Positions 3,249 to 24,421 of a stretch of 24,421 nucleotides of DNA are shown here, piece after piece (positions within the stretch are counted from its first letter, which is position 1; each line of letters opens with the position of its first letter). The stretch spans positions 1 through 24,421 of IMG/VR virus record IMGVR_UViG_3300017971_000745; one strand, given 5' to 3'. The position numbers and the translations under genes were made by a program. Source of the DNA: a virus. Under the pieces are notes generated by a model. The model searched no databases. It was not told the DNA's origin and was given only the letters and a program-made list of their open reading frames with translations.

Positions 3249-3316
3249 GGCGAGCCGGAGGCGTGAGCCGCCGGATAATTGCGTTATCATCGGCGGGCTA
3301 ACGCCCACCGCTCGCC
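3249..3316. repeat. Interspersed palindromic repeat, copy 2
   Basis: The element runs GGCGAGCCGGAGGCGTGAGC...CGGGCTAACGCCCACCGCTCGCC, with outer arms GGCGAGC and GCTCGCC, and begins 6 bp after the protease stop. It belongs to the same family as copies 1 and 4. Confidence 0.85.
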
Positions 3317-3538
3317 AAATAAGAGAGCGGCCGGGCGTCACGCCACACCCGGCCGCCGTTGGTCGCTCGCCGCCAACGCCGCCCAGGAGCGGCGAGCGTA
3401 ATCGGAGTGAGGCCCGCACAGTACCCGCCCGCGGCGATCGCCGCAATTGTAAATCTTACAATCGCCCGGTCCGGCTCCGGGCGGCACCGTCGGCGTCCAG
3501 GTCGTTTCCCCAACCGTCCGACCGCTCGCCGATACCTG
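3317..3538. other. Gene-free stretch with four successive inverted repeats
   Basis: No coding frame is credible here. There are perfect stems at 3327-3335/3348-3356 (9 bp), 3364-3373/3389-3398 (10 bp) and 3464-3469/3477-3482 (GCCCGG/CCGGGC, approximate ends), plus an AT-rich 17-bp dyad ATTGTAA-atc-TTACAAT at 3446-3462. The AT-rich dyad stands out in GC-rich surroundings and looks like an operator for a small helix-turn-helix protein. The GC-rich stems may be RNA hairpins in the 3' end of the protease transcript. Confidence 0.55.
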
Positions 3539-3566
3539 TTGACGCCGACGAATTCGGCCGTACAAT
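3539..3566 (+). promoter_or_regulatory. Sigma70-like promoter of the HTH gene (leaderless type)
   Basis: TTGACG (3539-3544), a 16-bp spacer and TACAAT (3561-3566) match the -35/-10 consensus well. The expected transcription start, 7 nt after the -10, is about 3573, which is the A of the ATG. The transcript would therefore have no 5' leader and no Shine-Dalgarno sequence. Confidence 0.7.
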
Positions 3567-3572
3567 GGGTGT

Positions 3573-3797
3573 ATGAGCGCTACCGAACCACCGCCAGCCA
3601 AATACCCCGTCACCATTTCTCAGGCCGCCCAACTCACCGGCGTTGCGGCGAGCACGTTGGCCACGATCGCCGCTCGTCTTGGCGTGGGCCGGCGGCTCGG
3701 GAATCTCCGCGTCAAGCTACTTTCCCGGTCGGATCTTGCCAAAATTCTTGCCGAAAAACGCCCTAAACCCGGCCGTCCACCGTGCAAACGGCCGTAA
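3573..3797 (+). CDS. Small helix-turn-helix DNA-binding protein
   Basis: This encodes 74 residues. Residues 13-45 (VTISQAAQLTGVAASTLATIAARLGVGRRL) read as a MerR/excisionase-type helix-turn-helix, and LSRSDLAKILAEKRP (50-64) is the typical following helix. The C-terminus is basic with a GRP core (KPGRPPCKRP) like an AT-hook. It probably binds DNA as a small regulator or recombination directionality-like factor. An AT-rich dyad at 3446-3462, about 110 bp upstream, is a possible target and would suggest autoregulation. Initiation is probably leaderless (see the promoter). It sits within head genes, separate from the structural transcripts. The family call is moderate; the specific role is unknown. 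Confidence 0.75.
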   Translation: MSATEPPPAKYPVTISQAAQLTGVAASTLATIAARLGVGRRLGNLRVKLLSRSDLAKILAEKRPKPGRPPCKRP

Positions 3798-3823
3798 CTC
3801 TTTACCCCTTATACGTTTACGGC
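3791..3823. repeat. Inverted repeat at the 3' end of the HTH gene
   Basis: GCCGTAA (3791-3797, including the stop codon) and TTACGGC (3817-3823) form a 7-bp stem around a 19-nt loop. It is followed by an A-rich run, not a T-tract. It may be a weak 3' hairpin, or an operator for the following HNH promoter. Confidence 0.35.
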
Positions 3824-3870
3824 AACGAAAAAAAAGACGGAAAACTTGGCGGAATTCCCCCGATTATTCG

Positions 3871-3898
3871 TTGACACGGACGAATAAGACTGTAGAAT
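3871..3898 (+). promoter_or_regulatory. Strong sigma70-like promoter of the HNH gene
   Basis: A perfect TTGACA (3871-3876), a 16-bp spacer and TAGAAT (3893-3898) predict a start near 3905. AAAGGAGG at 3908-3915 lies 5 nt before the ATG. This is the best consensus promoter in the window and suggests independent, possibly early or lysogenic, expression. Confidence 0.75.
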
Positions 3899-3920
3899 TA
3901 GGGCAGCAAAGGAGGAAATC

Positions 3921-4349
3921 ATGGCCAGCAAGAAACAACACGAGACGGCACGAGACCGAGGCGAATGGCAGGGGATGAACTGGATCCGGCAAGACAAGCG
4001 GCTGGCCATCTACCTCCGCGACGGCCTGGCCTGTACCTACTGCGGCCACAGCGTCGAGGACGGGGCAAGCCTCAGCCTCGACCATGTCAAGCCGCACAGC
4101 AAGGGCGGCAGCAACCACGAGACCAACCTGGTCACCTGCTGCGAGCGCTGCAACAAGAGCCGCGGCAATCGCTCGGTGCGGGCGTTCTGCCGCGCGGTGG
4201 CCGAGTATTTGAATCACGGCGTCACGCCGGAGGAAATCGAAAAGCACGTGCGGGCCACCGCGAAACGATCCTTGGCCCCGCACAGGATCGAAGCCAAAGA
4301 AATGATCGCCCGCCGCGGATCGGCCGCGCGGGTGCTGGCGACCATGTAG
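3921..4349 (+). CDS. HNH endonuclease
   Basis: This encodes 142 residues. A compact HNH/zinc module is visible: the Cys38-x2-Cys41 knuckle (CTYCG), catalytic Asp54-His55 in LSLDHVKPHSKGG, Asn69 in HETNLV, and Cys74-x2-Cys77 with Asn78 (CCERCNKSRGN). It should nick or cut double-stranded DNA with a divalent metal. In many HK97-like phages an HNH protein next to the terminase is required for DNA packaging; here it lies between protease and capsid instead. It has its own consensus promoter and a near-perfect ribosome-binding site. A homing or moron-type nuclease is the alternative. No RuvC or DNA-recognition domain is fused, so it is not IscB-like. Confidence 0.92.
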   Translation: MASKKQHETARDRGEWQGMNWIRQDKRLAIYLRDGLACTYCGHSVEDGASLSLDHVKPHSKGGSNHETNLVTCCERCNKSRGNRSVRAFCRAVAEYLNHGVTPEEIEKHVRATAKRSLAPHRIEAKEMIARRGSAARVLATM

Positions 4350-4437
4350 GGGATTCTCCGCGGGCGAGTGCCCGCGGCCCAAATAGAAGTGGGCCGGCAG
4401 CGGTGGCAGCCGCCCCGGCCCTTGGCCAAGTCCTACA
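4350..4437 (+). other. Hairpin-rich spacer between HNH gene and next gene
   Basis: A perfect hairpin CCGCGGGC-GAGT-GCCCGCGG lies at 4358-4377, followed by a nested GGGCCGG...CCGGCCC stem (about 4390-4425) and the palindrome TTGGCCAAG. There is no T-tract. The elements may terminate or protect the HNH transcript or form a leader for the gene at 4451. Confidence 0.45.
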
Positions 4438-4450
4438 AGGAGGACCTGAC

Positions 4451-5389
4451 ATGACTAGTCTGACCCAAGTGTATGTGGCGGTCAATCGACGCGAGGCAAT
4501 CCAGCGCGGTGTCAATGGCACCGAGACGCCGGTGGTTGTCGAGCTGGATGTGGCGTCGATGACGTGGCAGGATCGCGACGAGCTCGCGGCGCGGCTCGTG
4601 CTCGAAAGTGACACATACCGCAAGTACCCTGCACCGCGGTTGGGGGACCGCGACCCCGCGAGCGGAAACGTGCAGCGGATAATGACGGTCAACGATCCCA
4701 CGCAGGAAGGAGTGATTGAGGCGCTCGAGCAGTACCGCGCAGCCGTGGCTCAGCACGAGGCCGACGAGCAGGCAGTGCGCGACCAGGCGGTCGCGCTGGT
4801 GCCCAAAATCGTGGAGTGGATCGAGCAAGCCAGCGAGGAGGAGTTGGCAGAGCATCATTTGCTGCTCTGTCGCAATCGGTACCACGCATGCCCGATTGCG
4901 CCCGACTGCGACGAGCGCGTGAGAAAGTACGCGTACGACGCAATCCCGCAGGAGGTGATTGATCCGGCCAAGCAGCGGCTCCGCGCTTTGGAGGCGCGGG
5001 AAAAGGCGGCAAAGGAAGCCGCACAGCGCGCGGAGGCTGAGCGCAAAGAGCAGGAGCGGCGCGACTGGATCGCGGCGCACGGCTCGCAGCGGCTCGTGAC
5101 CATGCTGGCCGAGGGCATCGGTTGCGAGGAGACGTATCAGCGCGAGCGCGCTCGCTATGACGGCCAGCAGTTCCGGGCGCGGCTGGAAGAGCGGCGCCCC
5201 GGCTGGGAGCTGGCCGAGGAGGATGAGATTGACCGCGATGTGCATGACGTCCCCATGCGGGCGCTGAGGATCCTGGCGGCGGGCCGACAGCTCGCGGCCG
5301 GCTGCAAGCTGGCCAAGCGTGACGGCCACTACGTCTGCGTCGATACGTTCGAGGGCCGGCTGATCGTATGGCCGCCCTCGCAAAACTGA
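4451..5389 (+). CDS. Unknown coiled-coil protein
   Basis: This encodes 312 residues from ATG 4451, which has AAGGAGG 7 nt upstream; the frame is open further upstream through the HNH gene, but that part is a shadow. I do not recognise a family. Residues 80-130 are acidic and helical. Cys140, Cys147 and Cys153 cluster in LLLCRNRYHACPIAPDC. Residues 172-209 form a highly charged Ala/Glu/Lys/Arg helix, a likely coiled coil. The C-terminus (RDGHYVCVDTFEGRLIVWPP) looks like a small beta element. The gene lies in the non-structural island with no overlap with its neighbours. It may be an early or accessory protein. Confidence 0.75.
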   Translation: MTSLTQVYVAVNRREAIQRGVNGTETPVVVELDVASMTWQDRDELAARLVLESDTYRKYPAPRLGDRDPASGNVQRIMTVNDPTQEGVIEALEQYRAAVAQHEADEQAVRDQAVALVPKIVEWIEQASEEELAEHHLLLCRNRYHACPIAPDCDERVRKYAYDAIPQEVIDPAKQRLRALEAREKAAKEAAQRAEAERKEQERRDWIAAHGSQRLVTMLAEGIGCEETYQRERARYDGQQFRARLEERRPGWELAEEDEIDRDVHDVPMRALRILAAGRQLAAGCKLAKRDGHYVCVDTFEGRLIVWPPSQN

Positions 5390-5493
5390 TCCTACACGGG
5401 CCGGCGGCGGCCCCATTGAAGCTCGAGCGATGCTGTTCGCCCGATTTTTGCTGATTGGTTTTCCGCCGCTGGCCTTTTTGTTTGGAGCAAATC

Positions 5494-5889
5494 ATGAGCA
5501 TCAAATATCATCTCAGCAATCGCCAGCGCAAAGAGATCTACGTGCGCGGTGCGGAGCTGACGATTGCGTTGCCGCTGCCGGTCGAAGATCACGAGGATCT
5601 ACTCGCCTGGGCGCGGTCGGTCTTGGGTGACGTCGATCCAGAGGATGTCGCGGAGGCGCGGGAGGACGAGGTCATCGTCCACGCGACGTTGCGCGGCGAA
5701 AATGGACTGCCCAAGTTAATCGGCAAGATCGTACGCAACGCGGACGATCGGCTGCCGGGGCAGTGGCACTACGCGGCGGCCGTGATCCTCGTCACGATCC
5801 GGCACGCGGGGCATGAAATCCGCCATGCGCCTGATTATCCGCAGTGGCCCGGCGGCTCGCTGGTGGTCGACGGTCACAAAATCGAGTGA
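5494..5889 (+). CDS. Unknown acidic protein
   Basis: This encodes 131 residues from ATG 5494, with TTGGAG about 6 nt upstream. The longer frame begins in a T-rich spacer and is less likely. The product is soluble, starts with a basic segment (HLSNRQRKEIYVRG), has an acidic middle (VDPEDVAEAREDEVIVHA) and a His-containing end (IRHAGHEIRHAPDYPQW). I see no known motif. It is the last gene before the large structured gap and the terminator at 5958-5986, and so probably closes the HNH-containing transcript. Confidence 0.7.
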   Translation: MSIKYHLSNRQRKEIYVRGAELTIALPLPVEDHEDLLAWARSVLGDVDPEDVAEAREDEVIVHATLRGENGLPKLIGKIVRNADDRLPGQWHYAAAVILVTIRHAGHEIRHAPDYPQWPGGSLVVDGHKIE

Positions 5890-5895
5890 TTTAGC

Positions 5896-5924
5896 TTGCT
5901 TCGTCTGGCCGGCCGTGCTAGAGT
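5896..5924 (+). promoter_or_regulatory. Candidate promoter of a short transcript
   Basis: TTGCTT (5896-5901), a 17-bp spacer and TAGAGT (5919-5924) preceded by TGC form an extended -10. The predicted start is near 5931, only about 55 nt before the terminator T-run. The match to consensus is moderate. Confidence 0.45.
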
Positions 5925-5957
5925 GGCCCGTGAGATCGAGCGAGCATTTTCCCTCCC

Positions 5958-5986
5958 GCCCGGTGATAGCTTCCACCGGGCTTTTT
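5958..5986 (+). terminator. Rho-independent terminator
   Basis: The 8-bp stem GCCCGGTG (5958-5965) and CACCGGGC (5974-5981) with an 8-nt loop is followed by five T residues (5982-5986). This is the clearest intrinsic terminator in the window. It ends the transcript of the preceding genes and separates them from the capsid operon. Confidence 0.85.
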
Positions 5987-6073
5987 CGTTGCGCGGCGCG
6001 AAAATCGTCCGAAACTTGGAACGCGCCCAAATTCGCGCGTAAGCTGGAAAACTGATTTGCTGCCCGCAGGCCC

Positions 6074-6405
6074 TCCGCGACCTGGGGGACGCGGACGTCC
6101 AATCGCCGCTCTCCAGTGTGTGCGTGTCTCGGCCACGGGGTCGCCCCCCGAGCGCCAGCACACCACGGCGAAGGCCGCCAAGGGCGGCTGCAGCGCACGA
6201 AAATAGGCCCCGCAAGCCGTCCCGGACAGCTTGCAGGGCCCTGGGCTCGATCCATGCTACCGAGCCTATCCACACCCAGAAGCACGCGCGTTACGCAGCC
6301 GCCGGCGGTCTCTCTCTGGACAGACCAGGGAGTCAGCCTGGCCAGCAAAGAGCACCGCAGGCGCCACTGCGGATCCAGTAGCGCGGCCGGCCACGAGCCG
6401 GCTAC
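6074..6405 (+). ncRNA. Candidate structured RNA or capsid mRNA leader
   Basis: No credible gene occupies this stretch. Seven successive stem-loops can be drawn. They are 6074-6079/6090-6095; a long interrupted hairpin 6104-6170 (CGCCG, GTGTGC, CTCGG and GGGG, each with its partner); 6174-6179/6183-6188; an 11-bp stem with one mismatch, 6206-6217/6229-6240; 6242-6249/6261-6268; 6312-6319/6325-6332; and 6355-6360/6367-6372. An eighth, 6386-6391/6397-6402, ends 11 nt before the capsid ribosome-binding site. High GC raises the chance rate, but the density and tandem order are striking. It resembles neither tmRNA nor RNase P RNA. Whether it is a free RNA or a 5' leader cannot be decided here. Confidence 0.45.
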
Positions 6406-6426
6406 ACCAAACTATCGGGAGGAATC

Positions 6427-15052: not shown

Positions 15053-16984
15053 ATGGCCACGATCGGATCGCTGAATTATAAGATCGGCACCGACACGTCC
15101 GGCTTGACCAAGGGCATGGTGGTTACCAAGCGCGAGCTGCGCGACGGTGCGAAGCTGATGGAGGCCTCGGCCACGCCGGCCCAACGCTACGCCTCCAAGC
15201 TCGACCATCTCACCAATCTCTACCGCAAGGGCGCGATCGACGCCCACACCTACCAGCGCCAGGTCCGCCAGCTCCGCCTGGAGAAAATGACCGGCGTCCC
15301 CGTGCTCGGCCAATGGGCTAGCAAGCTGGCCAACGTGCACCCCGCGATTCTCGCCGGCACCGCCGCACTCGCTGCGTTTACGATCGCCGTGATGGCCGCC
15401 AAACGTGCTGTGCACGCCATGTCGGAGGCGGTCAAAGAGCAGCTCGGCAAAATCGATGAGATTGCCAAAGCGGCCCGGGCCGTGGGGACCACCGCCGAGC
15501 AGCTAGTCGGGCTGCGTCTGGCGGCGTCTGAGTTTTCCGGCCTTACCGATCAGCAGCTCGACAAAGCGCTCAAGAAAATGACCGTCCAGCTCGGCGACGC
15601 AGCCGACGGCACGGGTACCGCTGCTGACGCTCTGGACATGATCGGCGTATCCTTTGCTGAGCTGGCCGGCCGCGATCCGGCGGAACAATTCAAACGCATT
15701 GCCGAGGGCGTGTCCGGACTCGAGGACGCCACGCAGCAAGCCTACGTGGCGCAACAGTTGTTTGGCCGATCGGGAGTCGATCTCTTAAACACGCTGCGAG
15801 CCGGCCGCGAGGGCATCGAAGACGTCGAACAAGCGGCAATAGACCTGGGCCTCGCGTTTAGCGCAATCGAAGCCAATCGCGTGGAAGCGGCCAATGATGC
15901 GGTGGGCCGGGCCAAGGGCTTGGTAACAGGCTTGTCGCGAGAATTAACGGTCGAGCTGGCCCCTGCGATCCAATTGGCCGCGGAAAAATTTGTGAAAGCG
16001 CTGGGCCCCGATACGCAGTTTGGTCAGTCGATTCGGGAGCTCATCGACATAGCCGGTCCGGGTCTCGCGCTGCTCGTCGATTTGCTCGAGATGGCCGTCG
16101 GCAGTTTGCAAATGGTGCAAGGGAAAGTGATCGGCACCGGCGCTGGTATTCTGACGACTCTGGAATATCTCGACCGAGCCAAAGCCAAGCTCACCGGCGG
16201 CCAGGCGAACCAGGATCTGGCCGTGATGGCCGATTCGTTTCGCCGGCAACACGCGGAGTTACTGAAAGAGGCTGCGGGCAACTTCGAGTTTGACGTGTTC
16301 GAGCGATTCAAGGAGCTCTCCGGCGGCGCCGGCAATGTGGACGGATTAACCAACTCCGCCCGCGACGCTGGCACGGCGATCGACGATGCCAACGATGCTG
16401 CCGGCGCGTTGAACGACACGCTCGCGGAGCTTCCCGACCGCCTGGCCGAATTGGAGGACTTCGACCCCTTCGCTGATCTACGGGACAAGCTGCTCAATTC
16501 GTTCGAAGGGCGAGAGCTATCGCAAAGCATCACGCGCGCTTACGACGACTGGCAAAAGGTCGTGCGTCGCGGCGAGCAGCTTACCGAATCGGTTCGCACG
16601 CCGCAGGAACGCTTGGCGGACGATCTGGCCGAATACCGCGATTTGTTTGAGCAGGGGGCCATTGATGCGGAAACCTACGCCCGGGCGGTCGCCAAAGCCC
16701 GCGAGGAAGCGGACACGCCGCTGAAAGATACCGCGTTCAAGCCGCTTGGCCCAATCAACGCCGCCGTGGAAGGTTCCGCGGCCGCGGCGGAGCGCGTCGA
16801 CGCCTATCGCCAGATGCTGGCTCAGCAAACGGGCAAAGCTGCGGCCGCCGGCGACACCGAGCAACAGACCGCCAGCGGCGAGCCGTGGCACGAGACCGCG
16901 CTCAAGATCCTGCAGGGGATCCACGATTCGAACCAGGAGATCGCGGGCAAAGATCCAGTGACGGTGGAGGAGGTCGATCGATGA
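15053..16984 (+). CDS. Tail tape measure protein
   Basis: This encodes 643 residues; the ATG directly follows the T stop. It sets tail length and is ejected ahead of the DNA. It begins IGSLNYKIGTDTSGLTKGM, the usual opening of tape-measure proteins, followed by long helices. A hydrophobic segment at about 97-116 (HPAILAGTAALAAFTIAVMA) could insert in the host membrane. The TTAEQLVGLRLAASEFSG region (about 146-163) is typical of this group. The C-terminal third is helical with Asp/Glu-rich linkers. At about 1.5 angstrom per residue, the tail would be near 95 nm (inference). No lysozyme or peptidase domain is visible. Confidence 0.9.
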   Translation: MATIGSLNYKIGTDTSGLTKGMVVTKRELRDGAKLMEASATPAQRYASKLDHLTNLYRKGAIDAHTYQRQVRQLRLEKMTGVPVLGQWASKLANVHPAILAGTAALAAFTIAVMAAKRAVHAMSEAVKEQLGKIDEIAKAARAVGTTAEQLVGLRLAASEFSGLTDQQLDKALKKMTVQLGDAADGTGTAADALDMIGVSFAELAGRDPAEQFKRIAEGVSGLEDATQQAYVAQQLFGRSGVDLLNTLRAGREGIEDVEQAAIDLGLAFSAIEANRVEAANDAVGRAKGLVTGLSRELTVELAPAIQLAAEKFVKALGPDTQFGQSIRELIDIAGPGLALLVDLLEMAVGSLQMVQGKVIGTGAGILTTLEYLDRAKAKLTGGQANQDLAVMADSFRRQHAELLKEAAGNFEFDVFERFKELSGGAGNVDGLTNSARDAGTAIDDANDAAGALNDTLAELPDRLAELEDFDPFADLRDKLLNSFEGRELSQSITRAYDDWQKVVRRGEQLTESVRTPQERLADDLAEYRDLFEQGAIDAETYARAVAKAREEADTPLKDTAFKPLGPINAAVEGSAAAAERVDAYRQMLAQQTGKAAAAGDTEQQTASGEPWHETALKILQGIHDSNQEIAGKDPVTVEEVDR

Positions 16985-17871
16985 GCGCTCAGGCCGTCAG
17001 CTATCCGAAAGATTGGGCCCTGGACGTCGACGAGGAAGGGCACCGCACCTATCGCGTTGTGTGGCCGGTCGTCACCACGGATCGGCTGGACGGGCCGGAC
17101 ATCGCTTTGACGGCTCCGGGGCTAGCCCTGCCGGGCGCCAGCTTGGCCATCGGCAATACGACCGATCCTTGGGCCTTTTACCAGCGCAAGGGCAGCGCGA
17201 AGCTTCGCAAGGCGGAAACGCAGCGCAAACTGTGGGACGTGACCCAAATTTTCTCGACGTTGCCGCTCAAGCGCTGCTCCGACGATGCCATCGAGAACCC
17301 GTTACTCGAGCCGTACAATTGGCGAGGCGGTTTCAAGAAGACGACCAAAGAGGCCACGAAAGATAAAGACGGCAACGCGCTTTTGAACAGCGCCAATCAA
17401 CGGTTCCGCGGCCCGGCCGTCCAAATCCCTACCAGCATTCCGGACGTCACGCTGGAAATGAATGTAGCGTGGTTGGACCTGGATTTTCTCGCCGAATATG
17501 TCGATAGCGTCAACGATTCGACGTGGTGGAATCTCGCCGCGCGCAAGATCAAGTGCAGCGACTTCCAGTGGGAGCAGCGCTTGTACGGGACGTGTTTTAC
17601 GTATTTTCACGTGCTGTTCGGCTTTGAGCTGAATGACGACACGTGGGATTTGTCGCTGCTGGACGAAGGCGACATGGTGAAAATCGCCGGCACGGATCCG
17701 GCCGAGTTCAAGCGCGCGAAGGACGCAAACGAGGAGCTGGTCCACGTCCTCTTGGACGGCGACGGCAACGCTCTGGGCGCCGGCGAGGACGAAGTGTATT
17801 TGACCAAGCGCGTGCTGAAAGAAAAGGACTTTTCCGCCGTCGGCTGGCCGGCTACGCCGCTTTCCGTCTAA
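16981..17871 (+). CDS. Putative distal tail protein
   Basis: This encodes 296 residues and starts in an ATGA overlap with the tape-measure stop, so it is translationally coupled. The sequence is soluble and beta/aromatic rich (YRVVWPVVTTDRLDGPDIAL, then IPTSIPDVTLEMNVAWLDLD and WEQRLYGTCFTYFHVLFGFE). Position directly after the tape measure is where distal tail (Dit) or tail-hub proteins are encoded. I do not recognise a named family, so the role is inferred from order only. Confidence 0.75.
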   Translation: MSAQAVSYPKDWALDVDEEGHRTYRVVWPVVTTDRLDGPDIALTAPGLALPGASLAIGNTTDPWAFYQRKGSAKLRKAETQRKLWDVTQIFSTLPLKRCSDDAIENPLLEPYNWRGGFKKTTKEATKDKDGNALLNSANQRFRGPAVQIPTSIPDVTLEMNVAWLDLDFLAEYVDSVNDSTWWNLAARKIKCSDFQWEQRLYGTCFTYFHVLFGFELNDDTWDLSLLDEGDMVKIAGTDPAEFKRAKDANEELVHVLLDGDGNALGAGEDEVYLTKRVLKEKDFSAVGWPATPLSV

Positions 17872-18363: not shown

Positions 18364-19656
18364 GTGCCCGATAAGTTCAAAACCATTGGCCCCAACCTCC
18401 TGCGCGAGATTCGTTGGGCCATCGAGCAGGTGAAGAAGCTTGTCCGCGGCGATCTCCGCGACGACGAGCGCAACCCGGGCCGCGCGCCGGACGATTACGA
18501 GCTGACGCTGCCGACCAACGGCATCGCGGGACGCAACGTCAATACGATCCACAGCGATGCGACCGCGTCCTACCTGACAGAATACGACGCCGACACCACC
18601 GACAACCAACGCGAATTGCAGGCGCTGTCGCACGTCGACCACGAGCTGTTCAATATCCGGCCGGCCCATTTGATCGGCTCGGCAAAGCGGATCTCCTGCC
18701 TGACCAAATCCGGCGCGCGCTACGTGGGCGACGAAACGCTGATCGTCGGTTGCGTCAATTATCTAGGTGCCGGATGCGGCGGACTGTTGCCGGCCGGCAC
18801 GATGGAGATTTGGACCGGGCCCGACTCATACGGCCAAGCGTCCGGCGCGCCGACGCTGACCGTCCGCAACGGCACCAACGAGACGATTATCCAGCGTGTG
18901 TGTGTCGCGGCGCGGGACGCCGACGACCAGTACGTCGTGATCCTGGTCGGTCAGCCGTGCGTATGCGAACCGAGCAAATCGTCCAGCAGCTCGAGCAGCT
19001 CCAGTGAATCCAGCTCCAGTGAATCCAGCTCCAGTGAATCCAGCTCCAGTCAATCGGAAAGCGAGTCGTCCTCCTCGGGGTGCGCCCCAATCACCGTCTA
19101 CGAGACCGACACGCTCTGTATCGACGGTCGGCTCAAGGTATACCGTCGCGCCATCAGCCTCAACATCGTGGGCGGCTGCCTGACTCGCGAGCCGGGTACT
19201 TGGTCGCTGGCTCACGACGCCGGCTGTTGCGACTGCCCCTCGTCCAGCAGCAGTAGCGAGTCCGCAAGCGAGCCAAGTACCAGCAGCAGCGAGTCCGCAA
19301 GCGAGCCAAGTACCAGCAGCAGCGAGTCGGAAAGCGAGCCAAGTACCAGCAGCAGCGAGTCGGAAAGCGAGCCAAGTACCAGCAGCAGCGAGTCGGAAAG
19401 CGAGCCAAGTACCAGCAGCCAAACCTGCACCGGGCAATGCACGTGGCTTGCAGTCGACGACGGCAGCGGCAGTTCTTCGTCTTCGTCCCCGTCCAGCTCC
19501 TGCAACGACTGGTGCATGTACAAGTGCATCAGCGGGACGTGGGTCTTGCAGTGGAGCGATTGTTGCGACGGTAAAGGCTGCTATAGCCTGCCGTCGTTTT
19601 CCTGCACGCCGGGCCTCGAAGGCGTGTTAGCTGCGATAGAATGCGAGGGCACGTAA
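18364..19656 (+). CDS. Ser-rich, Cys-rich tail fibre/tip protein
   Basis: This encodes 430 residues with a GTG start 12 nt after the upstream stop. Residues 1-200 form a folded N-terminal part (KRISCLTKSGARYVGDETL is a representative run). Three low-complexity tracts then alternate with Cys-rich modules. Tract 1 (about 206-239) is Ser/Glu. A Cys module (CAPITVYETDTLCIDGRLKV) follows. Tract 2 (about 294-356) holds five 11-residue SESASEPSTSS-type repeats, and tract 3 is at about 367-380. The end has a CTGQCTW...CNDWCMYKCISGTW...CCDGKGC module that may be disulfide-bonded or metal-binding. It is probably a host-contact or tip protein. The Ser/Thr tracts are plausible O-glycan acceptors for the downstream enzymes; this is inference. 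Confidence 0.85.
   Translation: MPDKFKTIGPNLLREIRWAIEQVKKLVRGDLRDDERNPGRAPDDYELTLPTNGIAGRNVNTIHSDATASYLTEYDADTTDNQRELQALSHVDHELFNIRPAHLIGSAKRISCLTKSGARYVGDETLIVGCVNYLGAGCGGLLPAGTMEIWTGPDSYGQASGAPTLTVRNGTNETIIQRVCVAARDADDQYVVILVGQPCVCEPSKSSSSSSSSSESSSSESSSSESSSSQSESESSSSGCAPITVYETDTLCIDGRLKVYRRAISLNIVGGCLTREPGTWSLAHDAGCCDCPSSSSSSESASEPSTSSSESASEPSTSSSESESEPSTSSSESESEPSTSSSESESEPSTSSQTCTGQCTWLAVDDGSGSSSSSSPSSSCNDWCMYKCISGTWVLQWSDCCDGKGCYSLPSFSCTPGLEGVLAAIECEGT
19006..19050 (+). repeat. 15-bp tandem repeat (ESSSS) in fibre gene
   Basis: Three perfect copies of gaatccagctccagt, preceded by a partial copy, encode Glu-Ser4 units. The period is a multiple of three, so the length can vary in frame. 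Confidence 0.95.
19257..19421 (+). repeat. 33-bp tandem repeat in fibre gene
   Basis: Five copies of a 33-bp unit encode 11 residues each. Copies 1-2 read gagtccgcaagc and copies 3-5 gagtcggaaagc (Ser-Ala to Ser-Glu), so the array grew in two sub-blocks. The last copy diverges at its end. Confidence 0.95.
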
Positions 19657-19982
19657 TGCCACTCATCTGGCAACGCGTCGTGGATTGTCCGGACGTCCCA
19701 AATTGCGACTGTCCGCAGCCGGCTACTCCCCCGTCATTCGAAGGCCAGATTGCCTACACGGATTGCGGCGGCTCCTCGTCCAGTTCGTCCTCCTCGTCGT
19801 CCTCGTCCGCGGCGCGGGATTGTACCAAGATCTGCGAGTGGCATTGGAGCATGGCCGGGATGGGGTGGAATATCCAAATCACGTGTATCAGCCAAGGGGA
19901 TCCGCCGGGGTGCACCTGCGATCCACCCGCGCGGCAAGGGGATTACGACGGCGATGTTGACTACACACCCTGCACCATGTGA
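19656..19982 (+). CDS. Small Ser-tract, Cys-rich tail protein
   Basis: This encodes 108 residues; the ATG overlaps the upstream stop (TAATG). The upstream in-frame ATG at 19641 is less likely. An N-terminal Cys cluster (CPDVPNCDCPQP) is followed by a run of about 12 Ser (residues 40-51) and a Cys module CTKICEWHWSMAGMGW...CISQGDPPGCTCDPP. This resembles the terminal module of the previous protein, so the two look like partners or a partial duplication. It has no membrane or signal sequence. The end overlaps the next gene by 29 nt. Confidence 0.8.
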   Translation: MPLIWQRVVDCPDVPNCDCPQPATPPSFEGQIAYTDCGGSSSSSSSSSSSSAARDCTKICEWHWSMAGMGWNIQITCISQGDPPGCTCDPPARQGDYDGDVDYTPCTM

Positions 19983-20553
19983 ATATCGCGACGAGCGAAA
20001 CTGCGAGCAAGCGGCCAAAATTGCCGGCGTGCCTGTCGCTGTTTGCACAGATCAGGCCTGCGCGATCTGCCAAAGTGGACCGTTTCCGCGCGGTGTAAAC
20101 CGCGTCACGCTGTCGCTGGCAATCAGTCACTGCACGCGATCGGGTCTATGCGCCGCTGCCGCGCTGCAGCGAGCCCGCGACGCTCACCGCGCATTATTCC
20201 TTCGCCACGATCCACTTATCGCCGTGGAATCACACACCGGCCCGGGCTCGCAGCTCTGGCGCATGCTTGCCCACGATTTCGGCCTGGACCACAAGCCGAA
20301 CTGCCCATGCGTCGCGACCGCGCGGCAAATGAATGAGTGGGGCGCGTCCGGCTGCCGCGCACACCGAGCCGAACTTGTCGCGCTGCTCCGAGAGGCCCGC
20401 GAGCTATATAGCTGGAGAGACCACGTGTTAGCCGCAGTCAAGGGCGTCGCATCCGGCGCGGTCCGCTATCTTAACCCGCTGGATCCCTTTGGCAGTCTAA
20501 TTGACGAGGCAATTCGCCGCGGCGAAACCTTTTCCGATCCGAACGATCCGTGA
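19954..20553 (+). CDS. Cys-rich protein leading the glycan cassette, unknown function
   Basis: This encodes 199 residues from ATG 19954; the longer upstream frame is Arg/Pro-rich shadow of the Ser tract. The N-terminal region has Cys pairs (CEYRDERNCEQAA, then VCTDQACAICQSG) that suggest a zinc- or cluster-binding knuckle. The C-terminal half (GPGSQLWRMLAHDFGLDHKP, then CPCVATARQMNEWGASGC and a basic/acidic helix) recalls a module found in phage glycosyltransferase neighbourhoods; this is recollection of pattern, not a verified match. It overlaps both neighbours (29 nt upstream, GTGA downstream), so it is expressed with the glycosyltransferase. It may be a scaffold or acceptor-recognition factor. 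Confidence 0.75.
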   Translation: MLTTHPAPCEYRDERNCEQAAKIAGVPVAVCTDQACAICQSGPFPRGVNRVTLSLAISHCTRSGLCAAAALQRARDAHRALFLRHDPLIAVESHTGPGSQLWRMLAHDFGLDHKPNCPCVATARQMNEWGASGCRAHRAELVALLREARELYSWRDHVLAAVKGVASGAVRYLNPLDPFGSLIDEAIRRGETFSDPNDP

Positions 20554-21977
20554 ATTTGCGCGATACCTTCCAACGCGTCTTTGTCGTCTCGCTCGATCGC
20601 CGCCGCGATCGGTGGGAGGCTTTCCAGCAGCGGCTGCCGGCCGACTGGCCCTTTGCGCCGCCCGAGCGCGTCCAGGCGGTCGATGGGCAACACATACAGC
20701 CGCCAACATGGTGGACGGCCGGCCGCGGGGCCTGGGGCTGCTACCGGTCGCATCTCCGACTGATCGAGTACTGCCTCAACAACCAGATTGACTCCGTGTT
20801 GTTGATGGAAGACGACGCCGTCTGTTGCGACGGCTTCGCCGACAAGGCGGCCGAGTTCATCACCGCGCTGCCGGCGGACTGGGGAATGATCTATCTCGGC
20901 GGCCAACACCTGCACGCCAACCAACACCCGCCGATCAAGGTCAACGACCACGTCTATCAGCCGTACAATGTCAACCGCACCCATGCGTTTGCGCTCCGCG
21001 GAGACATGCTGCAGACGGTCTACAGTCATTTGCACAAGACCCACTGGCAGCAAGGCCACCACGTGGATCACCATTTCGGCCAATTGCACCAGCAGCGCAA
21101 CCATCCGATCTACGTGCCGCGCGAGTGGCTGATCGGACAAGCCGAGGGGAAAAGTAACATCTCCGGCCGCGAGCCACCGCGACGCTTTTGGGAATCCGCC
21201 GGCTCGATCGCGTCGCCCCATGTGCCCGCTGTGGTCGCCGTCGTCGGACCGTTTCGCGGCGGTACCAGTTGCGTTGCCGGCATGCTCCACAAGCTCGGCG
21301 TATCAATGGGCGATCGGCTCAAGCCCCCGACGCGAGCCAATCCCACCGGCTTTTTTGAAGCCGCGCAACTGGCGCGTATCTGCCGGCAATCCTTCCGTGA
21401 GCCGTGGCTCACGGAGCAAAACACCCACGCGCAACGCGTCGCCAGATTGCGCAACTGGGCCGCCGGCCGCGACGGGCAGCTTATCGGCGCCAAACACCCG
21501 ACGCTCTGCATGATGGTCGGCGACATGGTAGATGCGTGGCCCGACTTGCGGCTGGTCGTCGTCGATCGACCCGCCGACGAAAGCATACTATCGCTTAGGC
21601 GACAAGGCTGGTGGACGCCCAAGGCGCGCGAAGCGGTAATCCCTACGATGGTCGAGACCAGGGATACCGCCCTGGCGAATTGCGCCCGGCCCGTGCTGCG
21701 GCTGAAACATCACGACACGCTCGCCGATCCCGCCGCCACAGTGGATCGCCTCATCCAGTTTCTCGATTTGACTCCGACCGATGCCGAGATCGCTGCCGCG
21801 ATCTCGCACGTAATTCCTAATATTGAGAGGTCTGACAATGCCCTGTACTTCTTTTCCCGCCTCGTTTCCGCAAGTCGATCGCCGGCGATGGATTGCGCGA
21901 CAGTGCCAAGACCAAGTCGTGCTCCACGTCGGCTGTATGGCCCACCCGCACACCGCGGACCACAAGCGCCGCGGTAA
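20550..21977 (+). CDS. GT25-type glycosyltransferase fused to a sulfotransferase-like domain
   Basis: This encodes 475 residues with a GTG start overlapping the upstream stop. Residues 10-205 fit glycosyltransferase family 25: VFVVSLDRRRDRW at the start, GAWGCYRSHLRLIEYCL (60-76), the acidic LLMEDDAV (Glu87-Asp88-Asp89), a GT25-like HHVDHHF and AEGKSNISG at the end. From about 218 a second domain begins with VVAVVGPFRGGTSCVAGML, a P-loop like the PAPS 5'-phosphosulfate loop, and LVVVDRPADESILSLRRQGW, resembling the 3'-phosphate site. It should transfer a sugar and sulfate the product or a nearby group. The last 46 residues overlap the next gene and look like shadow sequence, so the functional end may be near residue 429. 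Confidence 0.82.
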   Translation: MNLRDTFQRVFVVSLDRRRDRWEAFQQRLPADWPFAPPERVQAVDGQHIQPPTWWTAGRGAWGCYRSHLRLIEYCLNNQIDSVLLMEDDAVCCDGFADKAAEFITALPADWGMIYLGGQHLHANQHPPIKVNDHVYQPYNVNRTHAFALRGDMLQTVYSHLHKTHWQQGHHVDHHFGQLHQQRNHPIYVPREWLIGQAEGKSNISGREPPRRFWESAGSIASPHVPAVVAVVGPFRGGTSCVAGMLHKLGVSMGDRLKPPTRANPTGFFEAAQLARICRQSFREPWLTEQNTHAQRVARLRNWAAGRDGQLIGAKHPTLCMMVGDMVDAWPDLRLVVVDRPADESILSLRRQGWWTPKAREAVIPTMVETRDTALANCARPVLRLKHHDTLADPAATVDRLIQFLDLTPTDAEIAAAISHVIPNIERSDNALYFFSRLVSASRSPAMDCATVPRPSRAPRRLYGPPAHRGPQAPR

Positions 21978-22455
21978 ATTACTCCATGATCAGCTCGCCG
22001 AAGTGGCCAAGGATCTGACGGGCGTCGACGTGGACGTCGAGACCAATCGCGACCTGCTGCCGATCGATTCCAACGCCCACCGTATCCTTTGCGCCGACGT
22101 CTGCGATCCCCTCGCATTTCACGCAGCGTGCAGCGTGTCACCTGTCTCCGACGTCATTGTCTTGGCCGACATCTTGGAACATCTGTCCCTTCCAGGACGA
22201 GCTCTTGATGTGGTCCGGACCTTCGCGCCTGAAGCGACAATACTCGTCTCTGTGCCCAACGCTTTTGGCGTCGCGGCCAACGCGAAGCGCGAGCGAGTGA
22301 ACCCCGACCACGTCGCCTGGTACAGCCCACGCACGCTTACCGCCTTGTTGGAGCGTCACGGTTACTGCATCGATCAACTAGTCGGCTGCCGAGGCCGCGG
22401 CCTGCGCGCGAAAGTCATCATTGCAAAAGCAAGCCCATGCCCAAGCCCGGACTGA
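21838..22455 (+). CDS. Class I SAM-dependent methyltransferase
   Basis: This encodes 205 residues. ATG 21838 is chosen because GAGAGG lies about 7 nt upstream. Motif I is VVLHVGCMAH (27-36), a variant without the usual GxGxG. Next come the acidic TGVDVD (61-66), a LCADVCD segment (motif III-like), VIVLADILEHLSLPG (motif IV/post-I helix) and the substrate-side VPNAFGVAANAK...HVAWYSPRTLTALLERHGY. The pattern fits small-molecule or sugar methyltransferases more than DNA ones: it has no DPPY/NPPY and no target domain. It is flanked by glycan enzymes, so sugar O-methylation is the working idea. Overlaps: 140 nt upstream and 19 nt downstream. Confidence 0.82.
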   Translation: MPCTSFPASFPQVDRRRWIARQCQDQVVLHVGCMAHPHTADHKRRGKLLHDQLAEVAKDLTGVDVDVETNRDLLPIDSNAHRILCADVCDPLAFHAACSVSPVSDVIVLADILEHLSLPGRALDVVRTFAPEATILVSVPNAFGVAANAKRERVNPDHVAWYSPRTLTALLERHGYCIDQLVGCRGRGLRAKVIIAKASPCPSPD

Positions 22456-23060
22456 TCTACTTTATTGCCTCCGTCAATCGCAGCGGCTCGTCCTGGCTCT
22501 GCGCCTTACTTCGGTCGACCGGCGTCGTGGGCGAGCCGCGCGAGCTGCTGCGTCAACCGCGAGAGAACTTCGGCGATCGAATCGCACAAGACGTCTGCTG
22601 CGTCAAGGCGCAATTGCCGCTGATGCGCCGGCTGTGGCGGACGCTAGATCAGCGGCATCGCGACGCGGCCAAGTTCCTCTACCTTCGCCGCCAGGACACA
22701 CTACGCCAAGCAATCAGCCTGTACCGAGCCCGGCAAACCGGTATCTGGCATCTTCGCCTCGATCGGGGCGCGCTGCAGGATCGCGAGCACAAACACCAGG
22801 CGGCGCCTTTCGATTGCCGCGCAATCCTGCGCAAAAAGCGGCAAGTAGAAGCCCACTACGCGCGCTGGGAAGCGTGGTTTCGCAAACAGGATTTGCGGCC
22901 GCTGCGAGTCACTTACGAGCAGCTCTGCGAATCGCCAACTGACGTCGTGCACGACATCACCGCGTTTTTGGGCCGCCCCTACCGCGGCCAGATCAGCGAC
23001 TATACCAAAATCATGCGCGACGAGATCACCGAGCAGTGGGTTGACAAACTGGAGCGCTAG
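22437..23060 (+). CDS. Stf0-type sulfotransferase
   Basis: This encodes 207 residues, with ATG 22437 inside the upstream gene end. The PAPS 5'-phosphosulfate loop is NRSGSSWLCALLRSTG (14-29), followed by GEPREL. The 3'-phosphate region is FLYLRRQDTLRQAISLYRARQTG (80-102), with Arg84/85, Asp87, Arg90 and Ser94. The C-terminus TYEQLCESPTDVVHDITAFLG is typical of Stf0, the trehalose 2-sulfotransferase family. It transfers sulfate from PAPS to a sugar hydroxyl. The family usually exceeds 230 residues, so this is a compact member. The donor must come from host metabolism. Confidence 0.85.
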   Translation: MPKPGLIYFIASVNRSGSSWLCALLRSTGVVGEPRELLRQPRENFGDRIAQDVCCVKAQLPLMRRLWRTLDQRHRDAAKFLYLRRQDTLRQAISLYRARQTGIWHLRLDRGALQDREHKHQAAPFDCRAILRKKRQVEAHYARWEAWFRKQDLRPLRVTYEQLCESPTDVVHDITAFLGRPYRGQISDYTKIMRDEITEQWVDKLER

Positions 23061-23062
23061 CG

Positions 23063-23770
23063 ATGACGCCGGTCTGGACTTACTGGGAAGGCCCGAAGCC
23101 GCCGTGGATCCGGCTCTGTCTGCGCACGATCCGCCGGCACATTCCGGCCGTCCAGATTCTCGGCCCGCGATGTTTCCGCGATCTCTATGACGAGATAGAT
23201 GTGCCTTGGGCCACGATCACCGCGCAGCGCCCAAACGTAAAGAGTGACTTCCTCCGCGCGTACCTGTTGCATTCGGTCGGCGGCATCTGGATCGACGCAG
23301 ACGCCATCGCCTTCCGCGACGTTCGCCCGATCTGGCACCTGCTGGACGCGGCCGATTTCGTCAGCTACCGCCGCGCTGGCGGCATGTACTGCTCAGCGCT
23401 CATCGCCGCCGAACCAGACTCGCCAATTGCCGCGGAATATTATGGACAGATGGTCGATCGACTGACACGTGCAAATGGCCGGCTTGGCCGCCAAGCCTTG
23501 GGCCCGACACTGCTCGGCAAAGCGTGCCGATCACTGCCGCACGCTCGCGTAGCCCGCATCCCCCCGAGGCTCGTGCACCAAATTCACCGTCGCGGCTGGG
23601 GCCGCGCGCCGCAACTATGGCAGCCGGCCGGTACCTGGGCGCCACCCGACGACGCTTACACCTGCATGCTCACTCACCGCGCCCTCGGTCCGCTCCGCAC
23701 GTGGCCGGCGCGCAAACTCCTGCGCAGCGACACAGTACTAGGCGCCTCTTTCCGCCGCGCTCTACGTTAG
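23063..23770 (+). CDS. DXD glycosyltransferase (GT32 / capsular synthesis type)
   Basis: This encodes 235 residues; the ATG is 2 nt after the upstream stop. The opening MTPVWTYWEGPKPPWIRLCL and the core KSDFLRAYLLHSVGGIWIDADAI (60-82), with the metal- and nucleotide-sugar-binding DAD at 78-80, are diagnostic of sugar-binding DXD-containing transferases. The C-terminal part is basic (HQIHRRGWGRAPQLW and an Arg-rich end). It should add a sugar to a glycan chain in the cytoplasm. It sits in the same transcript as the GT25 fusion, suggesting at least a disaccharide. Confidence 0.87.
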   Translation: MTPVWTYWEGPKPPWIRLCLRTIRRHIPAVQILGPRCFRDLYDEIDVPWATITAQRPNVKSDFLRAYLLHSVGGIWIDADAIAFRDVRPIWHLLDAADFVSYRRAGGMYCSALIAAEPDSPIAAEYYGQMVDRLTRANGRLGRQALGPTLLGKACRSLPHARVARIPPRLVHQIHRRGWGRAPQLWQPAGTWAPPDDAYTCMLTHRALGPLRTWPARKLLRSDTVLGASFRRALR

Positions 23771-23772
23771 CC

Positions 23773-24421
23773 ATGCTGAAAATACTAATCACTTGCCCGG
23801 GCCGCTGCGGCTCTTCCATGCTCGCCGAATTCTGCCGCCGCATGGGCCACGACCCTGGCGGCGATTGGATGGACCACACCGATTGCGGCCGTGAGGATCT
23901 GGCAGTCGCCGAGATCCACGCCAAGCTAATGTCACGCGACCCCAAGATCCGGCAGCTCGGCGCCGCGATGTGCCGATCGGTCCAACGTACGGTCGTCAAG
24001 ACCTGCACCGTGTTCCAGCGCCCTGATAGATTGTTGCCGGCCTGGATGGCCGCTCATCCAGCCTTCCATGTCGTCGCCCTATGGCGCGACCCGATCGCTC
24101 AATATTGGTCCTGGGATCGCAAGCTCGCGATCGAAGGATTCCCCAACCGCTGGGCAGAAACGAAGCCGCTACAAGATTTCTGCGACCACGTCACCGCCAA
24201 GCGCATCGCGCTGTACCACTACTGCCGTGACAAGGCGATCCCAATCACGTGGTTGACGTATCCCGATTTTCTCCAGGATTGGCTCGCCGTCTTTCGCGCA
24301 CTCGCGCCTCTCAGACTTGATGAAACGGCCGGGCATATGACTTGGCAAGCTTTAGCCGATCAAACAAAGGTACACTGTCAGCCCCCCCACCCCAAAAAAA
24401 AGCCGCAAAAATGCGATCGAG
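23773..24421 (+). CDS. Sulfotransferase-like protein (3'-partial)
   Basis: The open frame starts at ATG 23773, 2 nt after the previous stop, and runs to the window edge (216 codons). The N-terminal P-loop MLKILITCPGRCGSSML is like the PAPS 5' site. Later segments VVALWRDPIAQYWSWDRKL (about 97-115) and ITWLTYPDFLQDWL match the 3'-phosphate site and C-terminal helix of sulfotransferases. It lacks obvious similarity to the Stf0 protein at 22437, so it is a separate lineage. It is the third sulfotransferase domain in the cassette. The Cys in place of Ser in the loop (GRCGSS) is unusual. Confidence 0.78.
   Translation, partial: MLKILITCPGRCGSSMLAEFCRRMGHDPGGDWMDHTDCGREDLAVAEIHAKLMSRDPKIRQLGAAMCRSVQRTVVKTCTVFQRPDRLLPAWMAAHPAFHVVALWRDPIAQYWSWDRKLAIEGFPNRWAETKPLQDFCDHVTAKRIALYHYCRDKAIPITWLTYPDFLQDWLAVFRALAPLRLDETAGHMTWQALADQTKVHCQPPHPKKKPQKCDR

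Follow-up and report, generated by a model that had tools for sequence, protein, structure and literature searches.

The viral contig analysed here ends in a run of glycan-modifying enzyme genes that, judging from its gene order and protein families, probably constitutes a late-expressed tail-decoration module acting on a serine-rich tail protein. Beyond this single phage, we lean, if only slightly, towards the view that planctomycete phages in general possess an undescribed tail-glycoprotein system, in which a mucin-like Ser-rich tail-tip protein is combined with a GPG-domain adaptor that delivers the acceptor and with an exchangeable enzyme set, which comes in four or more non-homologous kinds, includes sulfotransferases in some of them, and sulfates, methylates, and extends the tail glycan.

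The window, by which we mean the whole stretch of DNA analysed, is an entire IMG/VR record of 24421 bases. It is a siphophage-like contig in which the tail genes precede the enzyme cassette (Table 1), and it encodes an HK97-type head module, a head-tail adaptor, a tail assembly chaperone, and a tape measure protein. A second contig (L002, 3300028840_002703) matches the first 4428 bases of the window at 99.96% and adds, upstream, a ParB-like protein, both terminase subunits, and a tail-fibre-like protein. Since the best named relative of the terminase (53%) is found in a Pirellulaceae genome, the host of the window phage is likely a planctomycete. Two further observations concern the head region: the portal protein (positions 440-2392) carries a run of (SDT) repeats at its C terminus, and the ~3 kb between the protease and major capsid genes (3250-6420) show an unusual ORF structure, with a real coding gene seeming to begin within ORF 3965-5389.

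Table 1. Features of the tail region and the enzyme cassette, in window positions
Feature	Position	Strand	Basis
Tail tape measure protein, 643 aa	15053..16984	+	phrog_9483, E 7.4e-45
Distal tail protein "tail17", next after tape measure gene	16975..17871	+	L150 relative, E 2.4e-11
Tail-region protein, 151 aa	17896..18351	+	no match
Ser-rich, Cys-containing tail protein, 430 aa	18364..19656	+	EPSTSSSESES repeats
Cys-rich protein, 113 aa, 12-Ser run	19641..19982	+	sequence
Cys/GPG-domain protein, 199 aa	19954..20553	+	N-terminal Cys module and C-terminal helical GPG..CxC..M..WG domain
GPG domain, aa 96-199	20239..20550	+	alignment A5; AF2 pLDDT mostly >90
GT25-sulfotransferase fusion, 475 aa	20550..21977	+	Pfam; end-to-end alignment A4 with L174-L176
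GT25 glycosyltransferase domain	20571..21195	+	PF01755, EDD motif
Sulfotransfer_3-type domain	21240..21773	+	PF13469, 26.8 bits
SAM methyltransferase, 205 aa	21838..22455	+	Methyltransf_23, 30.1 bits
Stf0-type sulfotransferase, 207 aa	22437..23060	+	Pfam PF09037, PDB 1tex
DXD glycosyltransferase, 235 aa	23063..23770	+	Caps_synth / Gly_transf_sug, slightly below cutoff
Putative third sulfotransferase, cut by contig end	23773..24421	+	motifs only

As an earlier, sequence-only reading of this DNA had proposed, the cassette consists of six consecutive plus-strand ORFs that run from position 19954 to the end of the contig. Starting from the preceding Ser/Cys gene, the junctions measure -29, -4, -140, -19, +2, and +2 nt, so that not all of them keep to the proposed 2 nt or less. 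The 140-nt overlap stems from the last ~45 residues of the fusion, a C-terminal tail absent from its relatives. Between the tail genes and the cassette, neither promoter-like nor terminator-like signals exceeded chance. The cassette is clearly tightly coupled to the tail genes.

The first cassette protein is Cys-rich, as had been read, and gave no Pfam match. For the second, the proposed GT25-sulfotransferase fusion, the GT25 part belongs to its family (34.6 bits against a cutoff of 24), with an EDD motif that is invariant in alignments A4 and A3, and the fused architecture recurs elsewhere (see below); the sulfotransferase domain falls just short in the window (26.8 bits against a PF13469 cutoff of 27), a cutoff that is passed by the aligned fusion relatives in L214, L215, and L176 (41.5, 30.6, and 28.4 bits). 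The predicted SAM methyltransferase was recovered by Pfam, and so was the Stf0-like sulfotransferase (117.7 bits against a cutoff of 22), which also aligned to PDB 1tex (E 3.9e-15) through an RSGS motif (5'-PSB RSGSS motif). While this protein resembles Stf0 by its family match, it is shorter and phage-borne. Family matches slightly below cutoff are consistent with the proposed DXD glycosyltransferase, whose relatives directly follow the fusion in four other loci (L225, L228, L229, and L247). Because of this arrangement, the methyltransferase and Stf0 genes, which at this depth of searching were specific to the window phage, seem to have been inserted into a conserved fusion-DXD core. Finally, the last ORF had been read as a third sulfotransferase and does display sulfotransferase-like motifs (GRCGSSML and WRDPIAQYWS), but it had no Pfam match, no PDB sequence match, and no relative across 294 planctomycete genomes, and its single-sequence AF2 model (pLDDT 39) was unusable.

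The candidate acceptor lies immediately upstream. In the 430-aa tail protein, Ser density reaches 24 per 30 residues, and we propose this protein as the putative glycan acceptor, with the 113-aa Cys-rich protein as a possible second one. Both AGY and TCN codons encode the Ser stretches, with an AGY share of 59% in the window's 430-aa protein and of 14-44% in the other ORFs tested (lowest in the 113-aa ORF), and the reading frame of the Ser-rich gene is set by overlapping neighbor genes. AGY and TCN codons are more than one mutation apart; since both groups are mixed, Ser-richness more likely results from selection for Ser than from DNA repeat slippage. This mixture also speaks against an explanation in which the Ser-rich stretches are unmodified flexible spacers and the enzymes act on the head, the tail tube, or another part of the virion. 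There is precedent for such targets, as PMC12619734 and PMC11256854 report glycosylated capsid and tail tube subunits in mycobacteriophages, citing Freeman et al. 2023. However, the gene linkage described below is specific to Ser-rich tail genes, and the major capsid gene is located more than 10 kb upstream of the cassette, which makes the spacer explanation very unlikely in our judgment.

Tracing the cassette beyond the window depended on alignments: scans of viral contigs with a single fusion or GPG-protein sequence returned no matches, and relatives found through the terminase lacked the fusion and were too distant for testing the cassette. Three viral contigs (L174-L176) encode an end-to-end GT25-sulfotransferase with 41-44% identity to that of the window, and a scan with the fusion alignment yielded 67 loci. 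Including genome copies, fusions are present in 39 loci, corresponding to 25 clusters at 90% identity. Defining a Ser-rich gene by at least 12 Ser in 30 residues, we found one no more than three genes upstream of the fusion in 22 of the 25 clusters, compared with 8.0 expected when positions were picked randomly inside these loci; none of 200,000 simulations gave so high a count. Dozens of contigs from many metagenomes repeat the succession of tape measure, distal tail, Ser-rich, GPG, and GT25-sulfotransferase genes in that order, and a single planctomycete genome harbors four fusions, three of which are in prophage-like tail loci with that order minus the GPG gene. GT25 genes that lack the sulfotransferase and follow a GPG gene are mostly accompanied by a Ser-rich gene as well; more distant GT25 genes are mostly without one. 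On the GT25 tree, the fusion label has to be gained or lost three times or more along well-supported branches, whereas the link to tail genes is retained. The combination had been called unusual, which is true of the exact gene set of the window and not of its core, which is a recurrent module rather than a one-off. One fusion locus (L242) has no strongly Ser-rich gene, and in another (L216) the fusion lies outside recognisable phage genes, beside capsule-type genes.

These counts bear on the notion that unrelated moron genes, or an assembly artefact at the contig end, merely placed glycan genes side by side, without any common function. The truncation of the last ORF and the odd 140-nt overlap of the fusion would fit such an origin. 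Nevertheless, an order kept across 25 clusters and many metagenomes already refutes it for the core, and it could apply only to the window-specific methyltransferase, Stf0, and the last ORF; as an account of the whole cassette, it is hardly credible.

To approach the linkage from the opposite side, tail loci were fetched with a conserved tail protein (A8) and not with the enzymes. From more than 570 tail-protein matches, the counts cover 38 distinct loci with enough downstream sequence, of which 33 contain a Ser-rich gene. Glycan-type enzymes are encoded downstream in all 33 Ser-rich loci and in none of the five others, figures that overstate independence, as the 38 loci fall into few lineages, and for which the enzyme query families were chosen after viewing the same loci. 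Pfam analysis of 77 downstream proteins returned methyltransferases, Mannosyl_trans3, GT2, GT4, GT64, GT8, MptE-like, radical SAM, and Sulfotransfer_4 families, none of which appeared among 71 proteins upstream of the same tail gene, where phage structural and a few unrelated families were found. Four unrelated enzyme sets can be distinguished: one joins GT4/GT2 to radical SAM or Sulfotransfer_4, a second pairs Mannosyl_trans3 and FkbM, a third combines a methyltransferase and an MptE-like protein, and the last contains GT25, in some cases together with a sulfotransferase. The module is thus swappable, with non-homologous enzyme sets standing behind the same type of Ser-rich gene. The proposed link to Ser-rich tail genes is strongly supported by both the fusion clusters and the tail loci. 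One locus (L369) has 11 Ser in 30 residues, just below the cutoff, yet contains GT2-like ORFs by eye. The notion that most Ser-rich loci lack enzymes, derived from narrow HMMs that matched in 4 of 34, was discarded when the broader Pfam check revealed the other enzyme sets. As a separate observation, weakly MptE-like, possibly MAF/DUF115-type, proteins are encoded directly before the Ser-rich gene at five tail ends (L312, L326, L335, L350, and L361); enzymes of the MAF/DUF115 type are known from flagellin glycosylation. Radical SAM proteins are located within tail-linked glycan cassettes at L236 9808-10620 and L364 13633-14496.

Between the Ser-rich genes and the enzymes sits the Cys/GPG protein. 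The first clue to its nature came from L144 in the Pirellulales genome G038, where the Cys domain forms the C terminus of a Ser/Gly-rich tail protein, in the order Ser/Gly-rich tail proteins, GT25, GT-methyltransferase protein, and integrase. The shared domain (GPG..L..C.C..M..WG) is present in 24 further viral loci, typically in the last gene of the tail region. Its AF2 model is helical and mostly of high confidence and had no meaningful PDB match, and we regard it as an undescribed domain. It is fused to a Ser-rich protein in L144, to GT25 plus sulfotransferase in L225, and to a GT4-type glycosyltransferase in L167. Such fusions to both neighbors in different genomes suggest that the GPG domain couples the Ser-rich protein and the enzymes. 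In three loci (L150, L151, and L162), GPG proteins have no recognised enzyme relative nearby. A search of 24 GPG-positive records for Sulfotransfer_3 found none, indicating that the module does not generally include sulfation. Several other proteins touch on this domain. A CxxC segment at the N terminus of the L174 fusion was considered as a GPG homologue and set aside, the match being no more than suggestive (hhalign E 1.8e-4, with a match probability just under one half). The motif with which that fusion begins (GLGD..C..C..R..LN..FPY; L174 7836-9362) also occurs in small stand-alone proteins of Nonlabens, Microcystis, and an uncultured podovirus (L195, L223, and L224) and is possibly distant kin of the GPG domain. 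In L172 (6811-8253), the GPG domain is joined to a protein that by eye resembles a phosphoribosyltransferase and gave no Pfam match.

Alternatively, the enzymes could modify the envelope glycan of the host, either in the lysogenic state or in the course of infection, leading to serotype conversion or superinfection exclusion, with the tail end being merely the usual landing place of accessory genes before the integrase. Integrases indeed follow the tail end in L094, L144, and L150, GT25 is an LPS-type family, and the GT25-sulfotransferase of L216 carries a Capsule_synth domain. The sequence-only reading had held that a cassette occurring independently of tail genes would argue against a virion role; such independence was not found in general, the exceptions being L216 and GT25 alone, without phage genes, in three host chromosomes. 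Against this view, the cassette overlaps or abuts late tail genes, with no separate promoter signal above chance. Moreover, unrelated enzyme sets all stand behind a Ser-rich tail gene, tail loci without one mostly lack enzymes, and in L214 glycan genes are flanked by the distal tail gene on one side and the Ser-rich gene on the other. A known layout of this kind, prophage O-antigen glucosylation by gtrABC, comprises a GtrA flippase, the bactoprenol glucosyltransferase GtrB, and a membrane Gtr. The present loci resemble it in placing glycan genes near the integrase of a prophage, but they encode GT25/DXD enzymes and sulfotransferases and are linked to tail genes; no GtrA/GtrB-like or other such Pfam match was obtained among the six cassette proteins of the window, although a later gene could follow past the contig end. 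Taken together, we consider an action on the host surface unlikely.

Several related loci deserve description in their own right. In L216 (9409-12057; genome G258, contig C45), Capsule_synth, GT25, and sulfotransferase are three domains of one protein, whose neighbors include a gene for a polysaccharide pyruvyl transferase and one for an RHS-like protein of 2023 aa that is rich in PSPS, with no recognised phage genes. In the planctomycete chromosomes (L219, L220, and L221), GT25 occupies one conserved locus without phage genes or sulfotransferase, beside dehydrogenase and DeoR-like regulator genes. A Pirellulaceae contig (L145, 6650-8344) encodes a fusion of sulfotransferase, GT2, and TPR.

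Returning to decoration of the tail, the closest cellular parallel is given by the serine-rich repeat glycoproteins of Gram-positive bacteria, in which a Ser-rich surface protein is encoded beside its Gtf cluster with variable accessory enzymes. Both types of loci share a Ser-rich gene that adjoins glycosyltransferase genes and accessory enzymes that vary. The serine-rich repeat glycoprotein, however, is a cellular adhesin with GtfA/GtfB priming and accessory Sec export, and no member of the GtfA/GtfB or accessory SecA2/SecY2 families was matched in the window cassette. Among phages, mycobacteriophage glycosyltransferases are thought to act on virion proteins (PMC11256854 and PMC12619734, citing Freeman et al. 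2023), the reported acceptors being the capsid and tail tube proteins mentioned above. The window phage shares with them the phage-encoded glycosyltransferases, and presumably a virion target; it differs from those systems in its Ser-rich tail protein, GPG-domain protein, and sulfotransferases, and in that modules of its type directly follow the tail genes and can exchange their enzyme sets. Linkage to virion genes across lineages, by which phage virion glycosylation would be recognised, is apparent here. Virion glycosylation by phages is already known, and the tail-linked variant with sulfotransferases appears to be new; a literature search that missed most subscription journals, and hence counts as weak evidence, returned no report of the module or of tail-linked phage sulfotransferases.

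Judged from the sequences, the linkage shows a functional coupling between the enzymes and the Ser-rich tail gene, from which we infer the acceptor. In the following scheme, we likewise infer how the steps succeed one another, that host PAPS and nucleotide sugars are used, and what the phage gains. The phage would make a mucin-like tail-tip protein rich in Ser, whose Ser stretches would be glycosylated by the products of the next genes to be translated. The GPG-domain protein may serve as an adaptor that joins the Ser-rich protein with the enzymes and presents the acceptor. A first or early sugar would be added by GT25 and then sulfated by the sulfotransferase fused to it, and the DXD glycosyltransferase would extend the glycan. 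In the window phage, Stf0 (by sulfation), the methyltransferase (perhaps by capping), and perhaps the third sulfotransferase would diversify the product, such that its glycan probably carries sulfate and may also be methylated. The PAPS needed for sulfation and the nucleotide sugars would be drawn from the host, and the phage may benefit through adsorption or through shielding of the tail.

If this holds true, a whole group of environmental phages would bear, on the part of the tail that contacts the host, a dedicated sugar coat that can be exchanged and is in some cases sulfated, and sulfation would join the known virion modifications. The combination of a Ser-rich tail gene with a GPG gene would provide a genetic signature for finding such phages, the GPG domain would become a candidate adaptor for enzyme-substrate coupling, and planctomycete prophages would gain a testable tail-glycan locus.
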